This document shows, piece by piece, positions 2,994 through 26,389 of a DNA stretch of 38,408 nucleotides. Source of the DNA: an uncultured Nitrospira sp. (GTDB taxonomy: Bacteria > Nitrospirota > Nitrospiria > Nitrospirales > Nitrospiraceae); NCBI GenBank assembly GCA_902500825.1, contig CABVRX010000011.1, forward strand, positions 1 through 38,408, read 5' to 3'. The position numbers and the translations under genes were made by a program. The notes beneath the pieces were generated by a model that searched no databases, was not told the DNA's origin, and saw nothing but the letters and a program-made list of their open reading frames with translations. The stretch's first letter is position 1. The number at the start of each line of letters is the position of its first letter.

Positions 2994-3842
2994 TCATTTT
3001 GCCTGAGCCTCAGCTTGTTCGACCAGGCCTACGATCTCATCAATCGTCCAGACATGGTCTGAAATACCCGCTGCCATGGCTGGCGTGACTCTCAAGGTTT
3101 GATGAATCCGCACGAAGTTGTAATGCATATAGTGCAAGGCGACTGACAGCGCGTGATTCTCGATCTTCTTACTGAAAGCATTGGTTAACCGAGTGAACCG
3201 AGTGAACCGACGGATACTCATCCGCATCGTCAGGTTTTGCCGTTCCACATAGGAAGTACTGATGCAGCAGGCATCAGGATTGCCCATCACAACTGACTTC
3301 GTAGCCCCAACACAGACAGGGGGACTATAACGCTTCTGTCCTTCTCCTGTGTCGCCGTAGATCTTCACGAGCTGAGCAAAGTCCACATCGCTGCCAAACG
3401 CCCCCTCAATCGCTTGCAAATAGGGTTTGTGGCCGTCCGCTGTGATTTGCACCCGATGGGCCAGGCGACTAGCCAGATCATCGACAAGCTCACAGGCTGT
3501 CCGGGCATCCCGGCTTCCAATCCTCCACGAAGGCACAAGCTTACTGTCGGCATCAATGGCAACCCATGTCCATACGTCACCTGCCTGTCCGCGCTTTTCA
3601 TCGGGAACATTCTTTTGCTTGGCATAGACGAAGCTCCAGATCTCGTCTAGCTGTAAGCGCTTGCAGGTCAGGTTTTTAAACGTCCTATCCTGATAGTCGG
3701 CGCACATCCTCGCCGTATCGATAAACAGCTTGGCTACTGTATTGAACGCGACATCCGCGATACGAGCCGTAGCCCGCATGCTGTTGCCTTCGACGAGAAG
3801 GTTGATGATCTGGGCTCGTTTCGCACTATCCAATTTGTTCAT
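2994..3842 (-). CDS. IS1-family DDE transposase
   Basis: 282 aa; an N-terminal helix-turn-helix (residues about 8-45, GNSMRATARIADVAFNTVAKL) is followed by a DDE catalytic core with Asp66 in LQLDEIWSFVYAK, Asp136 in ITADGHKPY and Glu200 in TSYVERQNLTMRMS. This is the single-ORF branch that databases call IS1 family. No frameshift or stop is seen, so the gene looks intact. I find no convincing terminal inverted repeats or target duplication, so the element's limits are unknown. A 9-bp tandem duplication adds three residues (RFTRFTRLT instead of the usual RFTRLT). Its promoter sits directly against the ATG (see 3849-3878). The AT-rich DNA beyond it marks the edge of an accessory patch. Confidence 0.88.
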   Translation of the reverse strand: MNKLDSAKRAQIINLLVEGNSMRATARIADVAFNTVAKLFIDTARMCADYQDRTFKNLTCKRLQLDEIWSFVYAKQKNVPDEKRGQAGDVWTWVAIDADSKLVPSWRIGSRDARTACELVDDLASRLAHRVQITADGHKPYLQAIEGAFGSDVDFAQLVKIYGDTGEGQKRYSPPVCVGATKSVVMGNPDACCISTSYVERQNLTMRMSIRRFTRFTRLTNAFSKKIENHALSVALHYMHYNFVRIHQTLRVTPAMAAGISDHVWTIDEIVGLVEQAEAQAK

Positions 3843-13686: not shown

Positions 13687-16653
13687 TCACACGTTCTGCG
13701 TTCGTTGCGCTTGCTCCAATTCGGCCAGCTCCTCCGCCTCGCCCTGCAACCGCTCGCTGCCCTCATCCGCCGGCATGAATTGCTGCACCCGCGTGTTGCC
13801 GCTGTCGACGACAAAGACGCTCCCCTTCGCATCGACGGCGAGCCCGTACGGAAAATTGAATTGCCCGGCCCCGTTCCCGAATCCGCCCCACTGGGTGATG
13901 AAATTGCCTTCGCGGTCGAACTTTTCGATCCGATGATTTCCCGTATCCGTCACATAGACATCCCCGGCTCCGTCGACCGTGATGCCCCAGGGCGAACGCA
14001 ATTGCCCTGCCTCCTGTGCCAATGAACTGCTGGCATGCCCGGCCGTCGGACTGCCTCCCCACTTCGTCAACAGTTGCGGCAAGACATTGGTACTGGTGTC
14101 GAATTTCTGAATGCGGTGATTCCCCATATCGACGACATACACCGCCCCATCCTCCGGATCAACCGCCACTCCGCGTGGAAAATAAAACTGTCCGTCTCCG
14201 TTGCCGAAGCTCCCCCAAGCCATGATGAACTCACCGGACATGTCGAATTTCTGCACGCGGAAATTGGCGCTGTCGACGACATAGAGGTAGCCGCGCACGC
14301 GGTCGGCTGCAATGCCCCAGGGCGCATTAAACTGTCCTTCACCGTTTCCGCGCGAGCCGAACTTCATGAGGTAGCCGCCGAGCTTCCCATCGAACTTCTG
14401 AACTCTGTGGTTGTTGGTATCCACCACCCAGACATCGCCCTTGCCGTCACAGGCAATGCCGGTGGGGTTGTGAAAATTTGAATTAGCCGAGCCGAAACTT
14501 CCCCACAGAATGATGAAGTTCCCGGCATTGTCGAACTTCTGCACACGATTGTTGCCGTTGTCGACGACAAACAACGATCCTTGCTGATCGGCGCACAGTC
14601 CGTACATCGGCGCCATAAACTCTCCGCCGTGCAACAGCGATGCGCCTCGTCCTGGCTTTCCCCATTTCGACACGCACACATAGCCGGATGTATTGACCAA
14701 AATTGTGGTGCTGGCCGGCGTGGAGACGTTGTTACCGATATCTTTGAACCACACATAAATGGTTTTTGGTCCGTCTCCATGCGAGAGAATGAACGGGATC
14801 GTGGCACCGAACTTGATCGCCGGCGTCGCATCCACCCACCCCGGCGTTCCGGCCACGGGGGTCAACGGACTTTCAGAAATGAAATAGGCCCCGACCCCCG
14901 AATCCAAATCGGTCGCCGAAATCGTCACCACGACATCAGGCGAGTTGGTCATAAAGGCCCCATGATTAATCACCGCGTAGGGATTCTGCGGCGCCGTGAT
15001 ATCGATGAGAACAGGCGTCGCCGTCACTTCTTCCGACGGTCCGCTTTCCGTCCCGTCTTCGAACAACGCAGTCACGGCATAAAAATACGGGGTGTCGTTG
15101 GTGAGACCTTCATGCGTGTAGGGGTTCGTCACGCCTTCGATCTTCGTCGCCCCCTCGAGCGTGACATGAGATGAGGTGCTGAAATAGAGATTGTAGGCCT
15201 GCGCGCTGGACACTTCCATCCAGCTCAGGAACACTTCTGTGTCGCCGGCTTTGACGGCAAGGCTGCGTGGTGGCTGCACAGCACCTGGTTCCACCGTTTC
15301 CGTCGGCTGGTCCTTTCCGCGATTCATCTCTTCTTCGGTCGGCACATATTTCACGACGCGGTTGTTGCCGCTGTCGACGACGTACACACTCCCTTCCGTA
15401 TCCACCGCGATGCCGTAGGGGAAGTTGACTTGCCCCTCCGTTTTCCCGCGGTTCCCGAATGAGCACAGGAATGTCCCGTTGCCGTCGAACTTCTGAATCC
15501 GGTGGTTGCCGCTGTCAACGACATAGACGTTGCCTAACGCATCACAGGCGATGCCCCACGGCGACTTGAACTGTCCTGGTCCATGGCCTTCCCGTCCCCA
15601 CTTCGTCAAGAAACTTCCACGGGTATCGAACTTTTGGATGCGGTTGTTGCTCTCGTCGGCCACATAAATATTGCCGATGAAATCAACCGCGACTCCGCGC
15701 GGGAAAAAGAAGGCGCCGTCGAAACTGCCGTCACGACCCCACTTCAGCAGCGGCTGGCCGTCGGCTTGAAATTTCTGAATGCGCGAGTTGCTGGTGTCTG
15801 AGACATACACATTGCAGTCATGATCGGTCGTAATGCCCCAGGGCACATCGAAACGCCCCATATCGGCCCCACGCCAGGCGAACCCGAACTTGCCCCAGGC
15901 TTTCTGCGCGTTGCCTTCGAGATCAAACTTCTGTACCCGGTTATTGCCGCTATCAGCCACATAAACGGTATCGTCCGGCCCGATCGTCAACCCGCGGGGA
16001 TAGTAAAACTGGCCTTCCTGCGGACTGGGTTCACCGCCCCATCGAGCCAAGAACTGTCCGGCCTTATCGAATTTTTGGATCGAATGGTTATCGGTATCAG
16101 CCACATAAATGTTGCCGTCCTTGTCGAGCGCGATCCCCGTGGGCGAGTTCAACTCCCCGTCGCCTACCCCCTCATGACCGATGACCATGGAGAGGAGATA
16201 GGGCGATGGAATGGCCATCACTTCTTGCGATTCCGGACTTTCGCCCTTTGGAGTAACGACAGTCACGACATAGTGATAACAGGTGCCGTTGGCAAGGTCG
16301 TCATGGACGTACGGACTGGAAGCACCTTCCATGCAAATCGCCTTGTCTTTCTTCACACCGATCGCGCTCTTGAAATCTTCAGGGCCGGCGATGGGACGGG
16401 TCAGCTCTGAGAACTTGATCTGCACGCCCTTACTCGTCTGAAAATAGAGGTTGTAGTACATGGCATCCGGTACCGGGTCCCAGGTAATGGTAATGCGCCC
16501 ATTCCCTGGTTTTGCTTGAATGCTCTGCGGAGGCGACGGCAGCTCTTCTTCCTCTGCCACTGAATCTCCGCCACCCCATTCTCCCTGGAGCCCTTCGATA
16601 CAGAGGAGGAACGGATTACATGTAACTGTGTTGTCAAAAAGCCATGCTTTCAT
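13687..16653 (-). CDS. Large NHL-repeat protein: two six-bladed propellers with FN3/Ig-like domains
   Basis: 988 aa from an ATG at 16653 (TGAGG about 10 nt upstream; a GTG lies one codon earlier). Order: short N-terminus; FN3-like domain (about 40-150); six NHL repeats (about 160-450); FN3-like domain (about 470-555); an Ig-like segment (about 560-655); six more NHL repeats (about 665-960); a charged helical tail. Repeats follow the pattern G.f..[23 protein letters not shown]. The last three blades of both propellers carry FPRG, SPWG and FPYG in the same order, so one propeller copied as a unit. NHL propellers usually bind proteins or other ligands; no catalytic motif is seen. No classical signal peptide is visible despite extracellular-type domains. 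It is the first gene of the guaB cluster. Confidence 0.88.
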
Positions 16654-16896
16654 CACGGTGTTGCCTCAGTTTGCTTTGTGGGACAATTCAGAAACAGTGG
16701 AACTTTCAATCGCTTAGACTTGGATTGGTCACTCTAGCAAAGCAACGGAAATAGAGTCAAGACAACGGTCTCCGTGCATGAAAAATGATACCGTGCGGAA
16801 ACCCTCTATGGTATCCATAGCTGAATCGATTACAATGCGTCGGTTACCAATGGAAAACCCGTGATCAGATTTTAGACGATTCAAAGGTGAAGAATT

Positions 16897-19825: not shown

Positions 19826-20812
19826 CTAGCGCTGTACACGGAGGATGGGACCAAGGGTAAGCCATTTCGTTGGACCCAAGGCGGACATGTGAGGCAAGTG
19901 GGCGACGTACCAGAACACAATGTCTTGCTCTTGTACTCCCTGGTTATCTTCGTCATATCCGAGTTGTCCTCGGGCCCCGAAGGTCCAGGGAACGTCCTCA
20001 CTGGCCTTGGCCCGTCGAATTGCCACATCCAGATCGGCAAACTGGTCTCGCTCGCCGTCATCCTTCAGTGGCACATACCCGGTACCAGGCAGGATCCACA
20101 CACCATGCCCATTCAGTTGGTCACGGACAAACCACGCCTTGTGAAGTGCTGGAATCTTGACGTCGTTTCGTTCATTCGTGTACTTGCGCCATCCCGGTCC
20201 CCAACCTCGATCCGCACTTCCCTCCTCATGGACAAAGACCTGATCCATGCCATTTCCGTTGATGTCAAAATCGAACCGCCAATACGGATGATGGTCGTGG
20301 TTGGTGTTGCACGACAAGCCTCGGCTGTGTAGGACAGGACGAAGTTCTCCGTCCTCCGACAGGTGCCATGCTTGATAAAGGTGATATTCCCCAATCCTGG
20401 CATAGATCCCAAGCTCGAGCCACTTCACATTATTCTGAGTTGAGCTTTCCGTGCAAACTTTCTGGTCGCCGCAATTGACGACCGGCACCAGATCCTGCCA
20501 CCGCAGACGGTCCTGAAATGGGCCGCATCGTCCGCTGTCAGCCCGCGAGCCGAACCAGGTGAAGGGATTCCACCAGACCATCTCTTTCACATACTTTACT
20601 CGTACGACAGGCATGCTGGCCTTGGTGAGGATCAACTCATCGGCGTACTTCACGTTTCGCAACGCCAAGCCCGTGTTGTCCCGAACTTCCCAGTCAAAAC
20701 TCCACCGTCCCCAATCTACGTGTTCGGACTGCGTCTCGGCCATGGCGTACTCGGACCAGACGAGGGCACAGAGCACGAACAAGAATAAGCTGGTGGACCA
20801 GATGCGTGTCAT
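19826..20812 (-). CDS. Secreted compact copper amine oxidase-like catalytic domain protein
   Basis: 328 aa from an ATG at 20812 with GAGGAG about 8 nt upstream. Residues 1-25 are a signal peptide (cleavage after AMA). The rest aligns with the catalytic domain of copper amine oxidases as I recall it: WSFDWEVRDNTGLALRNVKY matches the domain start; Asp92 in ADSGR matches the catalytic-base DSGE; Tyr143 falls at the topaquinone precursor position, with Trp149 and Asp154-Gly155 at the right spacing; His172-x-His174 with Arg179 and Asp181 match the HQH copper ligands; His308 in WYVAHLPH is the third ligand. The residues flanking the Tyr are Glu and His instead of Asn and Asp/Glu. The domain is shorter than usual and stands alone. 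Activity is unproven; it might bind copper without forming the cofactor. Confidence 0.72.
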   Translation of the reverse strand: MTRIWSTSLFLFVLCALVWSEYAMAETQSEHVDWGRWSFDWEVRDNTGLALRNVKYADELILTKASMPVVRVKYVKEMVWWNPFTWFGSRADSGRCGPFQDRLRWQDLVPVVNCGDQKVCTESSTQNNVKWLELGIYARIGEYHLYQAWHLSEDGELRPVLHSRGLSCNTNHDHHPYWRFDFDINGNGMDQVFVHEEGSADRGWGPGWRKYTNERNDVKIPALHKAWFVRDQLNGHGVWILPGTGYVPLKDDGERDQFADLDVAIRRAKASEDVPWTFGARGQLGYDEDNQGVQEQDIVFWYVAHLPHMSALGPTKWLTLGPILRVQR

Positions 20813-20822
20813 CCCATTCTCC

Positions 20823-21614
20823 TCACGAGCGAGACGGCTCTTCACCGGCCTCAAGGACCTTGTCCTCAGTCAGATCAACCACCGCCCAGTATTTCGGATC
20901 TCCGTCCTGTCCTTTTGAGAAAGTGATCCAAATTGTCCGGTGTGCATAACCTGGGTCGTTTCTGAAAAATCCCCGGTCTGGCTGCATCAGCAATCCATGT
21001 CCTTGGAGCTGCTCCACCTTGCCGGCCAGTCGGGGATCGGCCTTGGCCAATTCAATCCCCCGTTGAACATCCTGTTGGCCCTCCGGCGGCTGATAGCCCT
21101 CAAGACGAGAGGCGCTCAGAACGTTCGCGGCCTTCATCTGAACTTCCAGCGCAACGTTTTGACCATAACTGTAATAGACCAGCCTGACCAAACCTGTGGC
21201 ATGCGGACAACACCCGAAAGAAACCTTGCCAATCGGCGGGATGCGATCGGCGTCGATGAAGGCCCATCGAGTGCCCAGCAGAGCCGTGACGCGGCGATCA
21301 CTCTCAGCAGCCTTCCGCAATATCGCAACCTCCTCTGCGGTCAGCACGGCCGGCGCATTCACGGCGCGCTTCGTGCCTGCATCCTGGACGGTCCCCACCA
21401 TCTTCGGTTTGTGGTGGCCGACGATATCCTCACCAGTAAACTGGAAGACGTGTGGAGCAGGGACCTTACCGGGAAGTGTGACTTTCTGTACCGGAGTTTC
21501 GGGATCTTCTGGTCCAAACGGCCCACGCGACCCGGCATCGAGACTACAGCCATAGCCAAGGCCGATCGTCGCGAATAGCAAGAGGAGACTGCACCGCAAG
21601 ACTCGATCGTTCAT
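20823..21614 (-). CDS. Lipoprotein resembling the accessory (N2/N3) region of copper amine oxidases
   Basis: 263 aa. Lipoprotein signal peptide ending LGYGC (Cys23). Segments LTAEEVAILRKAAESDRR and, near the end, YWAVVDLTEDKVLEAGEEP follow the pattern of the N2 and N3 domains that precede the CuAO catalytic domain (LTAEEI.. helix and VDL...VV strand). FGCCPH and VYYSYG occur between. Its ATG overlaps the stop of the coiled-coil gene (ATGA at 21611-21614), and the CuAO-like gene starts 10 nt after its stop. I infer a membrane-anchored partner of the secreted catalytic protein. The domain match is from pattern memory and is moderate. Confidence 0.62.
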   Translation of the reverse strand: MNDRVLRCSLLLLFATIGLGYGCSLDAGSRGPFGPEDPETPVQKVTLPGKVPAPHVFQFTGEDIVGHHKPKMVGTVQDAGTKRAVNAPAVLTAEEVAILRKAAESDRRVTALLGTRWAFIDADRIPPIGKVSFGCCPHATGLVRLVYYSYGQNVALEVQMKAANVLSASRLEGYQPPEGQQDVQRGIELAKADPRLAGKVEQLQGHGLLMQPDRGFFRNDPGYAHRTIWITFSKGQDGDPKYWAVVDLTEDKVLEAGEEPSRS

Positions 21615-22126
21615 GTCAACTTCCCGGCAATTCCCAAGACGAGTTTGGAGATCTGCGCGGCTGCCTTGATGACGGCGGCCCGTTTTTTTCTCGAAGCCGC
21701 ATCCAGAATGGCTTCCTTCATGAGATCTTTGTAAGTCTTGACCTCATCCCTGCTGAAGGGAACGATCTGTGCGATAGTCTCATTATTAAAGGTGTTGGCC
21801 AGTTGGACATACAGATTGGAGATTTCCGCGGCATAAATCCCGCGGCGAAGCGGATCGTTCTTGTAGGTTTCAAATTTTTTCCGGAGCGCGGCGACGGCTT
21901 CGAGGAGCGCCTTTTGGCGAACTTTGGTTTCGTCTTCCTTCCCGACCACAAATTCGGCCGTTCCTAACTGGTCAATCAGCGCCTTGGCTTCTTCGCGCGC
22001 ATGATCCACCTGAACAGACAAATTGCTGATCTCCAGGTGGGCACCTTCGGCAGTTTCCATCACCTGCTTGATCAAGCGATCGTTGTCTTCCAGGAAACTG
22101 ATGACCCCTCTGGTACTGGTCTCCAT
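21611..22126 (-). CDS. Cytoplasmic coiled-coil protein of the lipoprotein/CuAO-like operon
   Basis: 171 aa from an ATG at 22126 with GAGGAGG about 6 nt upstream. No signal peptide. Almost entirely helical and charged, with heptad-like stretches (residues about 10-60 and 75-105), ending in an alanine/lysine-rich, weakly hydrophobic segment (RAAVIKAAAQISKLVLGIAG) that could associate with a membrane. It lies between two lipoprotein genes: 10 nt after the upstream one, and overlapping the downstream one by four bases. Family not recognised. Confidence 0.75.
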   Translation of the reverse strand: METSTRGVISFLEDNDRLIKQVMETAEGAHLEISNLSVQVDHAREEAKALIDQLGTAEFVVGKEDETKVRQKALLEAVAALRKKFETYKNDPLRRGIYAAEISNLYVQLANTFNNETIAQIVPFSRDEVKTYKDLMKEAILDAASRKKRAAVIKAAAQISKLVLGIAGKLT

Positions 22127-22136
22127 GATGCCTCCT

Positions 22137-22847
22137 CTATTGCCCGTCGTCTTTCTTCAGCTTGTCCAGAAGGTCGACCAAGTCGGAGGTGAAGGTATGC
22201 CCGTGTTGCAGGGTCCTTGAGCGGATGATACGTGAGCCCGTGACTTCCTCCAACGCGTCATTGACGGTCCGGGAATGATTCAGAATCTCCATGATGCGCT
22301 CCGACTGCTCTGGGGCCTGCTCCACCAAGGCAGTCACGAACTCCGGATCGATCGAAGCCAAGCCCGACTTATCCGCATAACGCTTCAACTGCGCATGGAT
22401 CGCCGCCGCGTGCTTCCACGAGTCGTTTAACGCATTGGCCGTATCGCGCAAACCACAAAAATCTTCCTCAAACTGATCCCACACCGCTTTTTCCAATCCT
22501 TGATACTCGGCTAAATACATTTGGCCGACGAGATAGGCGGCCGCGTACGCTGCGTCTCCTTTTTTACTAGCAACATTCCGGTACGAAGAGAGCACGAATT
22601 GATGCTTGGCTTCCTGGGCCTGCAACGCTTTAAAACTCTCGTGGAGAGAGCTGCGAGCCTGCTCCAGGAATTTGATTCGGGTTTCGGTTTCTTTCTGGAA
22701 CAGGTCGATATTCGTCTGAGCCGCATCGATCTTCGTACCTTCCTGACGGATCAGGTCGCGAACAGCATCACTGTGAATCGAATGACAGCCCGCTGCGCTG
22801 ATTATGATGAGCCCGATGATCAAGACGCTGGCTATAGGTCGAAGCAT
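22137..22847 (-). CDS. Predicted lipoprotein, helical
   Basis: 236 aa from an ATG at 22847 (GGAGG about 6 nt upstream). Lipoprotein signal peptide ending SAAGC (Cys21). The mature part is helical, with a likely coiled coil at about residues 30-85 (IDAAQTNIDLFQKETETRIK and onward), then an Ala/Tyr-rich helix (GDAAYAAAYLVGQMYLAEYQ). No catalytic motif is seen. It is the second gene of the operon, 30 nt after the first. It shares general architecture with the first lipoprotein (lipobox plus long helices), which might reflect duplication or just similar roles in the envelope. Confidence 0.75.
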   Translation of the reverse strand: MLRPIASVLIIGLIIISAAGCHSIHSDAVRDLIRQEGTKIDAAQTNIDLFQKETETRIKFLEQARSSLHESFKALQAQEAKHQFVLSSYRNVASKKGDAAYAAAYLVGQMYLAEYQGLEKAVWDQFEEDFCGLRDTANALNDSWKHAAAIHAQLKRYADKSGLASIDPEFVTALVEQAPEQSERIMEILNHSRTVNDALEEVTGSRIIRSRTLQHGHTFTSDLVDLLDKLKKDDGQ

Positions 22848-22877
22848 ATCGGTTTCCTCCCGCTTAGTCTCGATTTA

Positions 22878-23510
22878 TCATCGGCGTAAGGTCCGTACCG
22901 CGTCTGCGAGCGACTGAACTTCGTCACGGGATAACGTGACATCAATATCCAGGTATTGCTTAATAATCGCATTGATTCGGTGAAGAGCTCCCACGTTGGT
23001 ACGGTACTGATCGAAGGCCGTCAGGTCCACGGCCGAGGCGGCCTGTGAGTCTTTTGTCACACGTTGCTCGACTCGGGTGATGAGTTCGGGAAGCTTCTGG
23101 AGGAGATTGTTCATGTCGCCGGTGCCCGCCTGAAAGACGACCTGCCCATTCGGCCCTTTCCGCTCCGGGAGATTCTTGAGGCGAATGTCGTTGATCAACG
23201 CGATGACTTCAGGCCCCAGCAATTCGGCATCGTCTTTCGCCAGTTCCACATCGGCCACATCAGTCAATTTGGGATTGGTCGCGGCCCATTGCAGCGCCAA
23301 GTTGAGCTTGAGCCTGGTTTGAACATGGCGATACCACTGGTGATGCCGTTCGGTGACGTTCGTCACCAACTCTCGATATTGCTCCATCAACCGCTGGTTC
23401 CCGGCATACGCCTGATCTTTGGCGATCAATGCCTGTTTGACTTCCGGCGGAGTGGCGCAACCGAGACAGACCAAACTCAGCGCGACAATAATGGTGTGCG
23501 CCGCTTTCAT
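22878..23510 (-). CDS. Predicted lipoprotein, helical, first gene of the operon
   Basis: 210 aa from an ATG at 23510 with AAGGAGGAATCGCC directly upstream; the frame open to 23534 would disrupt the signal peptide. Lipoprotein signal ends VCLGC (Cys18). The mature part is mainly helical (QRLMEQYRELVTNVTERHHQ and later segments), no cysteines, no recognised domain. It heads the five-gene leftward operon ending with the CuAO-like gene. The 200 bp upstream hold no convincing promoter; TATACT near 23678-23683 on the minus strand is a candidate -10 box without a good -35. Confidence 0.75.
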   Translation of the reverse strand: MKAAHTIIVALSLVCLGCATPPEVKQALIAKDQAYAGNQRLMEQYRELVTNVTERHHQWYRHVQTRLKLNLALQWAATNPKLTDVADVELAKDDAELLGPEVIALINDIRLKNLPERKGPNGQVVFQAGTGDMNNLLQKLPELITRVEQRVTKDSQAASAVDLTAFDQYRTNVGALHRINAIIKQYLDIDVTLSRDEVQSLADAVRTLRR

Positions 23511-25021: not shown

Positions 25022-26389
25022 CTACGGTCTCTTCAGCATGATGGCATCAAAGTACGTTTCGGGTACCGGATGCGGAAGCCGAAGTTGTCCCGACCCGAAC
25101 GCCACATATTTCTCGCAGGTCAGCTGCTCCAGACCGATCGGCCCCTTCGCATGCAGCTTCCCCGCGCTCAGCCCCACATCGCTCCCCATCCCGAAACTAT
25201 CGCCTGAATGAAGCCTGGTAGACGCGTTCACCAGCACCGCCCCGGCATCGACTTCCCTAGTGAATCGCATGGCGGATTCGTAACGTGTGGTGGCAATTCC
25301 CGCAGTGAGACAGGGACCGTGCATTCTGATATGGGCCAGCGCCTCATCAAGGCTTTCGACCATTTTCACAGCCAAGGTTGGACCGGCAAACTGAGTCTGC
25401 CAATCGGCCTCAGTCGCCGGAATGATCGCGGTATGCCCCGTCATCGCCATTTGTCCCATGAGCGCAACCGTCTTCGGGCACGCATGCACTTCTATCTTGA
25501 ATTGGTCCAGCAGACGATTGATCAACGGAGGCAAGAACTGCCGTCCTACAATCTGCTGCACCAGCAAGGTATCCAGTGTGTTGGAGGCTCCCGCTTGCTG
25601 CACCTTGGAGTTGATCACCAAGTTTTGTGCGACTGAAATATCAGGATCTTCATCGATGTAGAAATGCGTGAGGCCCCCGTCATCGCTCAGAATCGGAACC
25701 TTGGCTTGTTCAGAAACCGTCTTTCGTAAACCGGCTCCACCCCGCACGATGATTGCGTCGAGATATTTCCCCGATCGAATCAGGTCGAGCGCAACTTCTT
25801 TCTCTTGGCGATCAACGAGTACCCAGGCGCCGGCGGGTATGCCGTTCGTCGTGGCCGCCTCACGAAATCGTGCATCCATCGCCTGATGCGTCAGTTTCCA
25901 TTCCGGAGCGCCGCGAAAGATACAGAGATTGCCGGATTTGAGGCAGAGCGCGATCGATTCCGCGGTGACGAGCGGACTCCGTTCGGAGATCACGCCGATC
26001 ACTCCGATCGGCACCCTCACCCGAGAGACTTGCAACCCATCCGGACGTTCCTGTCGCGACGTCATGGCGCCGACGGGGTCCGGCAGATCGGCGATGAAAT
26101 GCAGCCGCTCGACGATCTCCTTCATCTGATCAGCTGTCAGACGAACGCGAGCCACGGCGGCCTTCATCCGATCCTTCGTGTCCGCCTTCTCAAAGGACTT
26201 TCCCACGGCCTCGACATCTTTGGCGTTTTCCGCGAGAATGACGTCTTGGCCGGCAGCAACTCGATCCGCAACGGCATGCAGAGCTCTCGATTTCACGGGA
26301 CCGGGAAGCCGGCCAAGACTGATCGCGGTGCTCCGGCAGTCCTTCAGGAGCTTATCGATGTATAACTTGATGGGGACTTCAATCGCCAT
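25022..26389 (-). CDS. proA: ProA family (glutamate-5-semialdehyde dehydrogenase) with Ser at the catalytic Cys position
   Basis: 455 aa, aldehyde dehydrogenase superfamily, overall clearly ProA-like: VPIGVIGVI.ER.P.VTAES.ALCLKSGN, DAIIVRGGAGL, VPILSDDGG.THFYID, and GLSAGKLHAKGPIGLEQLT near the end. ProA reduces gamma-glutamyl phosphate in proline synthesis using an active-site Cys in a CNA.ETLL segment. Here the segment reads GASNTLDTLL; codon 269 (25583-25585) is TCC, Ser. The Arg-Pro-Asn of the usual ESRPNVT is also changed (ERSPLVT). It is longer than common ProA (about 420). It may be a divergent paralogue with altered or lost reductase activity; no proB is nearby. It could still be the only ProA, which the window cannot tell. 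Confidence 0.75.
   Translation of the reverse strand: MAIEVPIKLYIDKLLKDCRSTAISLGRLPGPVKSRALHAVADRVAAGQDVILAENAKDVEAVGKSFEKADTKDRMKAAVARVRLTADQMKEIVERLHFIADLPDPVGAMTSRQERPDGLQVSRVRVPIGVIGVISERSPLVTAESIALCLKSGNLCIFRGAPEWKLTHQAMDARFREAATTNGIPAGAWVLVDRQEKEVALDLIRSGKYLDAIIVRGGAGLRKTVSEQAKVPILSDDGGLTHFYIDEDPDISVAQNLVINSKVQQAGASNTLDTLLVQQIVGRQFLPPLINRLLDQFKIEVHACPKTVALMGQMAMTGHTAIIPATEADWQTQFAGPTLAVKMVESLDEALAHIRMHGPCLTAGIATTRYESAMRFTREVDAGAVLVNASTRLHSGDSFGMGSDVGLSAGKLHAKGPIGLEQLTCEKYVAFGSGQLRLPHPVPETYFDAIMLKRP

Follow-up and report, generated by a model that had tools for sequence, protein, structure and literature searches.

A candidate two-subunit, envelope-anchored copper amine oxidase encoded by a five-gene block in Nitrospira

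A block of five genes in an uncultured Nitrospira sp. probably encodes a copper amine oxidase (CuAO) of the topaquinone (TPQ) type that is divided into two subunits and anchored in the cell envelope, with three helical proteins as lineage-specific accessories. The window analysed here is a stretch of 38 408 nt (contig CABVRX010000011.1 of assembly GCA_902500825.1). The genome to which it belongs carries an AmoA gene (G000:C2:330998-331705), which identifies the window as DNA of a comammox Nitrospira. The genes of the block, in the direction of reading, are as follows.

P0005, 22878..23510, minus strand: 210-aa probably helical lipoprotein, lipobox Cys18 (CLGC)
P0004, 22137..22847, minus strand: 236-aa probably helical lipoprotein, lipobox Cys21 (AAGC)
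P0003, 21611..22126, minus strand: 171-aa probably helical protein without an export signal
P0002, 20823..21614, minus strand: 263-aa lipoprotein with CuAO domains D2 and D3, lipobox Cys23 (GYGC)
P0001, 19826..20812, minus strand: 328-aa secreted protein consisting of a compact CuAO catalytic domain (D4) on its own, ATG start

From P0005 through P0004, P0003 and P0002 to P0001, the genes are spaced by 30, 10, -4 (an ATGA overlap) and 10 nt, and the block spans positions 19826-23510. An earlier note on this DNA had described five closely packed leftward genes, and all five open reading frames were recovered in place. More than 20 further Nitrospira loci carry all five genes in identical order as judged by tblastn, and a profile search recovered the block in additional genomes, the two sets overlapping in that some loci are the same contigs. 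The block occupies at least two chromosomal contexts, with flanking genes that vary among subgroups, and dN/dS lies between 0.04 and 0.13 across all five genes. The constant gene order, the low dN/dS and the varied flanks together indicate that the five reading frames are not a chance set. A single gene broken by a sequencing or frame artefact was rejected as well, as the same split recurs in dozens of genomes and P0001 starts with a signal peptide of its own. When relatives were scanned with simple pattern rules, 74 of 75 copies of P0001 carried a signal, and a lipobox was present in most copies of P0002, P0004 and P0005.

P0001 matches the Pfam family PF01179 at 34.7 bits (cut-off 27) and is the sole over-threshold match to this family in its genome. 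Its Sec signal peptide ends AMA|ET. The AlphaFold model has a pLDDT of 58.9 and a pTM of 0.62, with residues 71-101 below 50; CuAOs account for 50 of 50 among the Foldseek matches listed (best E 5e-10), and superposition on AGAO (1avk) with VIA-align gives a Z of 19.9 and an rmsd of 3.4 Å over 255 residues. The domain is compact, at about 300 residues against the usual 400 or so, and alignment with E. coli TynA places the roughly 100 absent residues in large deletions, which perhaps include the β-hairpin arms that partners of the homodimer exchange. Comparison of shallow alignments with TynA by hhalign returned low probabilities, yet kept D4 in register. The alignments to TynA give the following candidate active-site positions.

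Tyr143 codon, 20384..20386, minus strand: aligned with Tyr466 of E. coli TynA, the topaquinone precursor
His172-x-His174, 20291..20299, minus strand: pairs in the alignment with TynA His524/His526, the HxH copper ligands
His308, 19889..19891, minus strand: pairs in the alignment with TynA His689, the third copper ligand
Tyr74 (gate Tyr), 20591..20593, minus strand: pairs in the alignment with TynA Tyr369, a conserved residue of the active site
Asp101 in a CGP[FY]xD motif, 20510..20512, minus strand: proposed catalytic base (TynA Asp383), from sequence only

Conservation at these positions was assessed in 76 full-length rows, which range from 92% to about 29% identity, include proteins from Microvirga, Variovorax and Nonomuraea, and in some cases represent the same contig twice. 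Tyr74, Asp101, Tyr143, His172, His174 and His308 are invariant in all 76. The likeness of the [YF]-x-D segment at Asp101 to the base motif was judged by eye, and the model pLDDT there is below 50. The residue preceding Tyr143 is Glu in 60 of the 76 rows, Trp in six, Gln in five and Asn in one, and the residue after it is His in 66, Arg in six and Asp in four; the T-x-x-N-Y-D/E consensus, and its Asn in particular, is thus not kept in the compact D4 family. The Asn preceding the TPQ tyrosine has been described as strictly conserved in CuAOs (PMC3382800). In the N381A variant of AGAO, TPQ still forms, 180-fold more slowly, and kcat is 160-fold lower (PMC9491219). Of the 76 rows, 74 have both Cys96 and Cys168; Microvirga lacks the two together, a single case that hints at a disulfide linking the loop of the putative base to the HxH loop. 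The residues that never vary speak for an active TPQ enzyme; the missing Asn and the reduced D4 give genuine grounds for doubt.

The domains that P0001 lacks appear to be supplied by P0002, as predicted folds of its two segments indicate.

D2-like domain, P0002 residues 85-175, 21090..21362, minus strand: assigned by fold comparison
D3-like domain, P0002 residues 178-263, 20826..21083, minus strand: assigned by fold comparison

P0002 has no match in Pfam, NCBIfam or the PDB by sequence, so its D2-D3 identity is visible through fold comparison only. The model (pLDDT 64.4, with low confidence in the first 85 residues or so) finds CuAOs in all of its top 38 Foldseek matches, and by far its best fold matches are D2 and D3 of the E. 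coli and Arthrobacter CuAOs. Specifically, residues 85-175 superpose on residues 93-184 of the E. coli CuAO (VIA Z 9.2, rmsd 2.9 Å, 85 residues), and residues 178-263 on residues 100-196 of AGAO (VIA Z 8.8, rmsd 2.7 Å, 82 residues). The arrangement of the two domains relative to each other does not match (rmsd about 13 when both are superposed together), and our claim is therefore restricted to the single domains. The earlier note had read the 263-aa lipoprotein as carrying CuAO N2/N3-like segments and the 328-aa protein as CuAO catalytic-like; the former agrees with the separate D2 and D3 matches, the latter with the above-cut-off Pfam score and the fold match to D4, and neither predicted fold proved to be unrelated to CuAOs.

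P0003, P0004 and P0005 are probably helical, judging from their sequences. Searches of their families against Pfam, NCBIfam, the PDB, PHROGs and PADLOC gave nothing beyond weak coiled-coil-like matches, the two pairs of trio proteins that were compared had no recognisable mutual relationship, and a search of phages gave no relative. A match of P0004 to a phage head protein (E 1.4e-4) was judged to be a chance match of a helical protein. The lipobox cysteines, Cys21 of P0004 and Cys18 of P0005, are invariant among relatives. By the same pattern rules neither an export signal nor a lipobox occurs in any of 57 copies of P0003, and the window copy has no signal and no alternative start upstream that would supply one. 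The proposal in the earlier note that the operon adds further envelope partners thus fits the two lipoproteins, P0004 and P0005, and does not fit P0003. Invariant lysines are few in P0004 and P0005, and P0003 has none.

The distribution of these genes was surveyed in 396 Nitrospirota genomes, together with a GTDB-wide scan that used close-relative patterns. The catalytic profile finds matches in 55 of the 396, every one belonging to the window's order, and 50 genomes hold a full-length catalytic gene of the window's type. P0005 is present in 43 of these 50; the seven that lack it are G379, where the contig ends, G039, one Nitrospira, and five members of another family. Six genomes are pair-only, with the catalytic and D2-D3 genes and no trio. 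Conversely, P0005 occurs without an intact catalytic gene in just four genomes: G041, with frame-split catalytic pieces, G024, with decayed catalytic remnants, G324, in which P0005 and the catalytic gene are both fragments, and G179, a contig-end scrap. In the loci that were read, the D2-D3 gene adjoins the catalytic gene, save at L066 and at loci that are decayed or cut by a contig end. In two further genera (L125 and L126; G355 and G312) the trio lies on the opposite strand, convergent to the pair, and is still its neighbour.

The catalytic gene is therefore not found apart from the other four in most relatives, and the division of the enzyme into a membrane-anchored and a secreted catalytic part, which the earlier note had suggested, is supported by both the folds and the survey. 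Since the trio is absent from one Nitrospira, from a second family and from distant pairs including one on a Microvirga plasmid, the catalytic/D2-D3 pair is the core of the system. The trio is under purifying selection and tied to the pair in the window's family, and it is dispensable in other lineages. Several copies of the operon are decaying (L077, L076, L128 and L130), with frameshifts, stops or catalytic-gene remnants; in L077, P0005 and P0004 persist, and P0003 and P0002 were not detected.

CuAOs of known structure form homodimers whose subunits, of 70-80 kDa each, contain every domain in a single chain (PMC3382800). P0001 resembles TynA/ECAO, AGAO and HPAO in its D4 β-sandwich, copper HxH...H ligands, TPQ-precursor Tyr and gate Tyr, and has an Asp in what may be the base position. 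The α/β domains D2 and D3 exist here as well, but in the partner P0002. D2-D3 and D4 are thus made as two proteins, each with an export signal of its own and the D2-D3 one a lipoprotein, and the Nitrospira block holds three additional genes. No single D2-D3-D4 polypeptide was found in any pair locus read, each of which has two genes. Single-chain compact CuAOs of about 540 aa do occur elsewhere (L079, L080, L132, the Variovorax WDL1 plasmid L087 and Nonomuraea L088), and some genomes with split pairs also carry one. These have the same shortened D4 and the same invariant residues, and differ in being one chain with no signal peptide seen and no trio; their N-terminal part matches the D2-D3 profile weakly. 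They form one branch of the tree (support 99/100). The branch length of TynA exceeds 8, and because TynA is too distant the tree does not root the origin of the split. In Variovorax, the fused gene (L087:2296-3885) lies upstream of a galactose-oxidase-like gene, which represents another type of copper radical oxidase.

More distant pairs are found in a second Nitrospira group (group 2: L064, L065 and L067) and on a plasmid of Microvirga ossetica (L086), where a D2-D3-like gene lies directly upstream of a compact D4. Their D4 domains are 32-35% identical to P0001 (34.9% in Microvirga ossetica), and the group-2 pairs retain the Tyr-Asp combination. They differ from the window's pair in that the N-terminal part is not an obvious lipoprotein, D4 has long C-terminal extensions and the trio is absent. 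The Microvirga catalytic protein (L086:4884-7076) runs on into repeated WKANNEPWQGPV-type units, and its annotated start (5256) removes the D4 N-terminus. One genome, G012, has a second, distant copy at L066:6011-7567, a group-2 catalytic gene with no D2-D3 partner detected alongside, and also holds a complete group-2 pair elsewhere (L067). At a contig edge (L078; G000:C7:1-909), the window's genome holds another, more distant fragment of a compact CuAO catalytic domain. In the literature searched we found no description of a split CuAO or of a CuAO from Nitrospira; one abstract (PMC11327836) records that a Ca. Nitrospira transcribes an 'amine oxidase' and does not state the type.

On the reading that we prefer, P0001 would be exported by Sec, bind copper through His172, His174 and His308, and have Tyr143 converted to TPQ. 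With Asp101 serving as the base, it would use O2 to oxidise a primary amine, which may be small or protein-bound, and would yield an aldehyde, NH3 and H2O2. P0002 would dock on P0001 in the periplasm in the manner of the N-terminal domains of one-chain CuAOs; it would hold the catalytic domain at the membrane and give the substrate entrance its shape. P0003-P0005 may adapt the assembly to a substrate or a location particular to Nitrospira. Support for contact between P0001 and P0002 is indirect, and comes from their complementary domains, adjacency, translational spacing and fused relative. The last of these is a Rosetta-stone argument: a fused compact CuAO with the same D4 suggests that the halves are in contact.

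An oxidase of this type might instead modify proteins, cross-linking envelope proteins, perhaps the trio itself, via their lysines rather than catabolising small amines. CuAOs are described as accepting substrates as small as methylamine and as large as polypeptides (PMC3382800), the trio shows tight linkage in the window's family, two of its members are lipoproteins that share the compartment and could act as substrates or scaffold, and no aldehyde-metabolising gene is stably linked. The pair-only lineages argue that the trio is not an obligatory substrate, however, and invariant lysines are few in P0004 and P0005 and lacking in P0003, and we consider this explanation unlikely. Lysyl oxidases (LOX/LOXL) offer a possible analogy in chemistry, with copper, a quinone and protein amines; LOX is not homologous to TPQ-containing CuAOs (PMC3382800). 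A bolder version, in which all five proteins form a lipid-anchored CuAO that makes TPQ without the canonical Asn and acts as an envelope protein-lysine oxidase, with the trio presenting the substrate or being the substrate, strikes us as less probable still.

The complex could also be a pseudoenzyme or copper-binding structural assembly that has kept D4 and the copper site and either does not make TPQ or does not use it on amines. Loss of the strict Asn, a residue after Tyr143 that is mostly His, and the large D4 deletions would fit such a protein. A mere copper site needs none of Tyr143, Asp101 and Tyr74, however, and these are invariant together with the histidines in all 76 rows, and group-2 pairs keep the Tyr-Asp as well; we regard a structural role as rather improbable. 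That the genes are mere neighbours, comprising a stand-alone compact oxidase, an unrelated lipoprotein and unrelated helical genes, is consistent with the six genomes that have the pair without the trio. Against this, P0002 supplies exactly the D2-D3 fold absent from P0001, the linkage outlasts changes of flank and an inversion, and a fused relative exists, which leaves coincidental proximity very hard to credit.

No stably linked aldehyde dehydrogenase or substrate gene was found in the loci compared, and a proA-like gene of the aldehyde dehydrogenase family (25022-26389) was rejected as a fixed partner in amine catabolism because it is missing from loci with other contexts. The window also encodes a 989-aa protein (13687-16656), rich in NHL repeats and with an fn3-like domain, which lies close to the operon in 15 of the 26 loci compared, and a weak IS1-type transposase match at 2994-3842 may mark the remains of a mobile element. 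The catalytic gene is present in all 24 near-complete genomes of the Nitrospiraceae genus g16, in one as fragments only, and no AmoA match was found in this genus. Many AmoA-bearing genomes, including that of the window, have the catalytic gene, and many others are without the operon. A comammox-specific function was therefore rejected.

If active, the enzyme would be a CuAO with its accessory and catalytic domains on different proteins, so that the roles of D2-D3 could be tested by omission. It would also form TPQ in the absence of the consensus Asn, on which known CuAOs depend to work at normal speed. Given the carriage of the gene throughout genus g16 and in many comammox genomes, an active enzyme would also matter for what these nitrifiers do with organic amines, NH3 and H2O2 at their surface.
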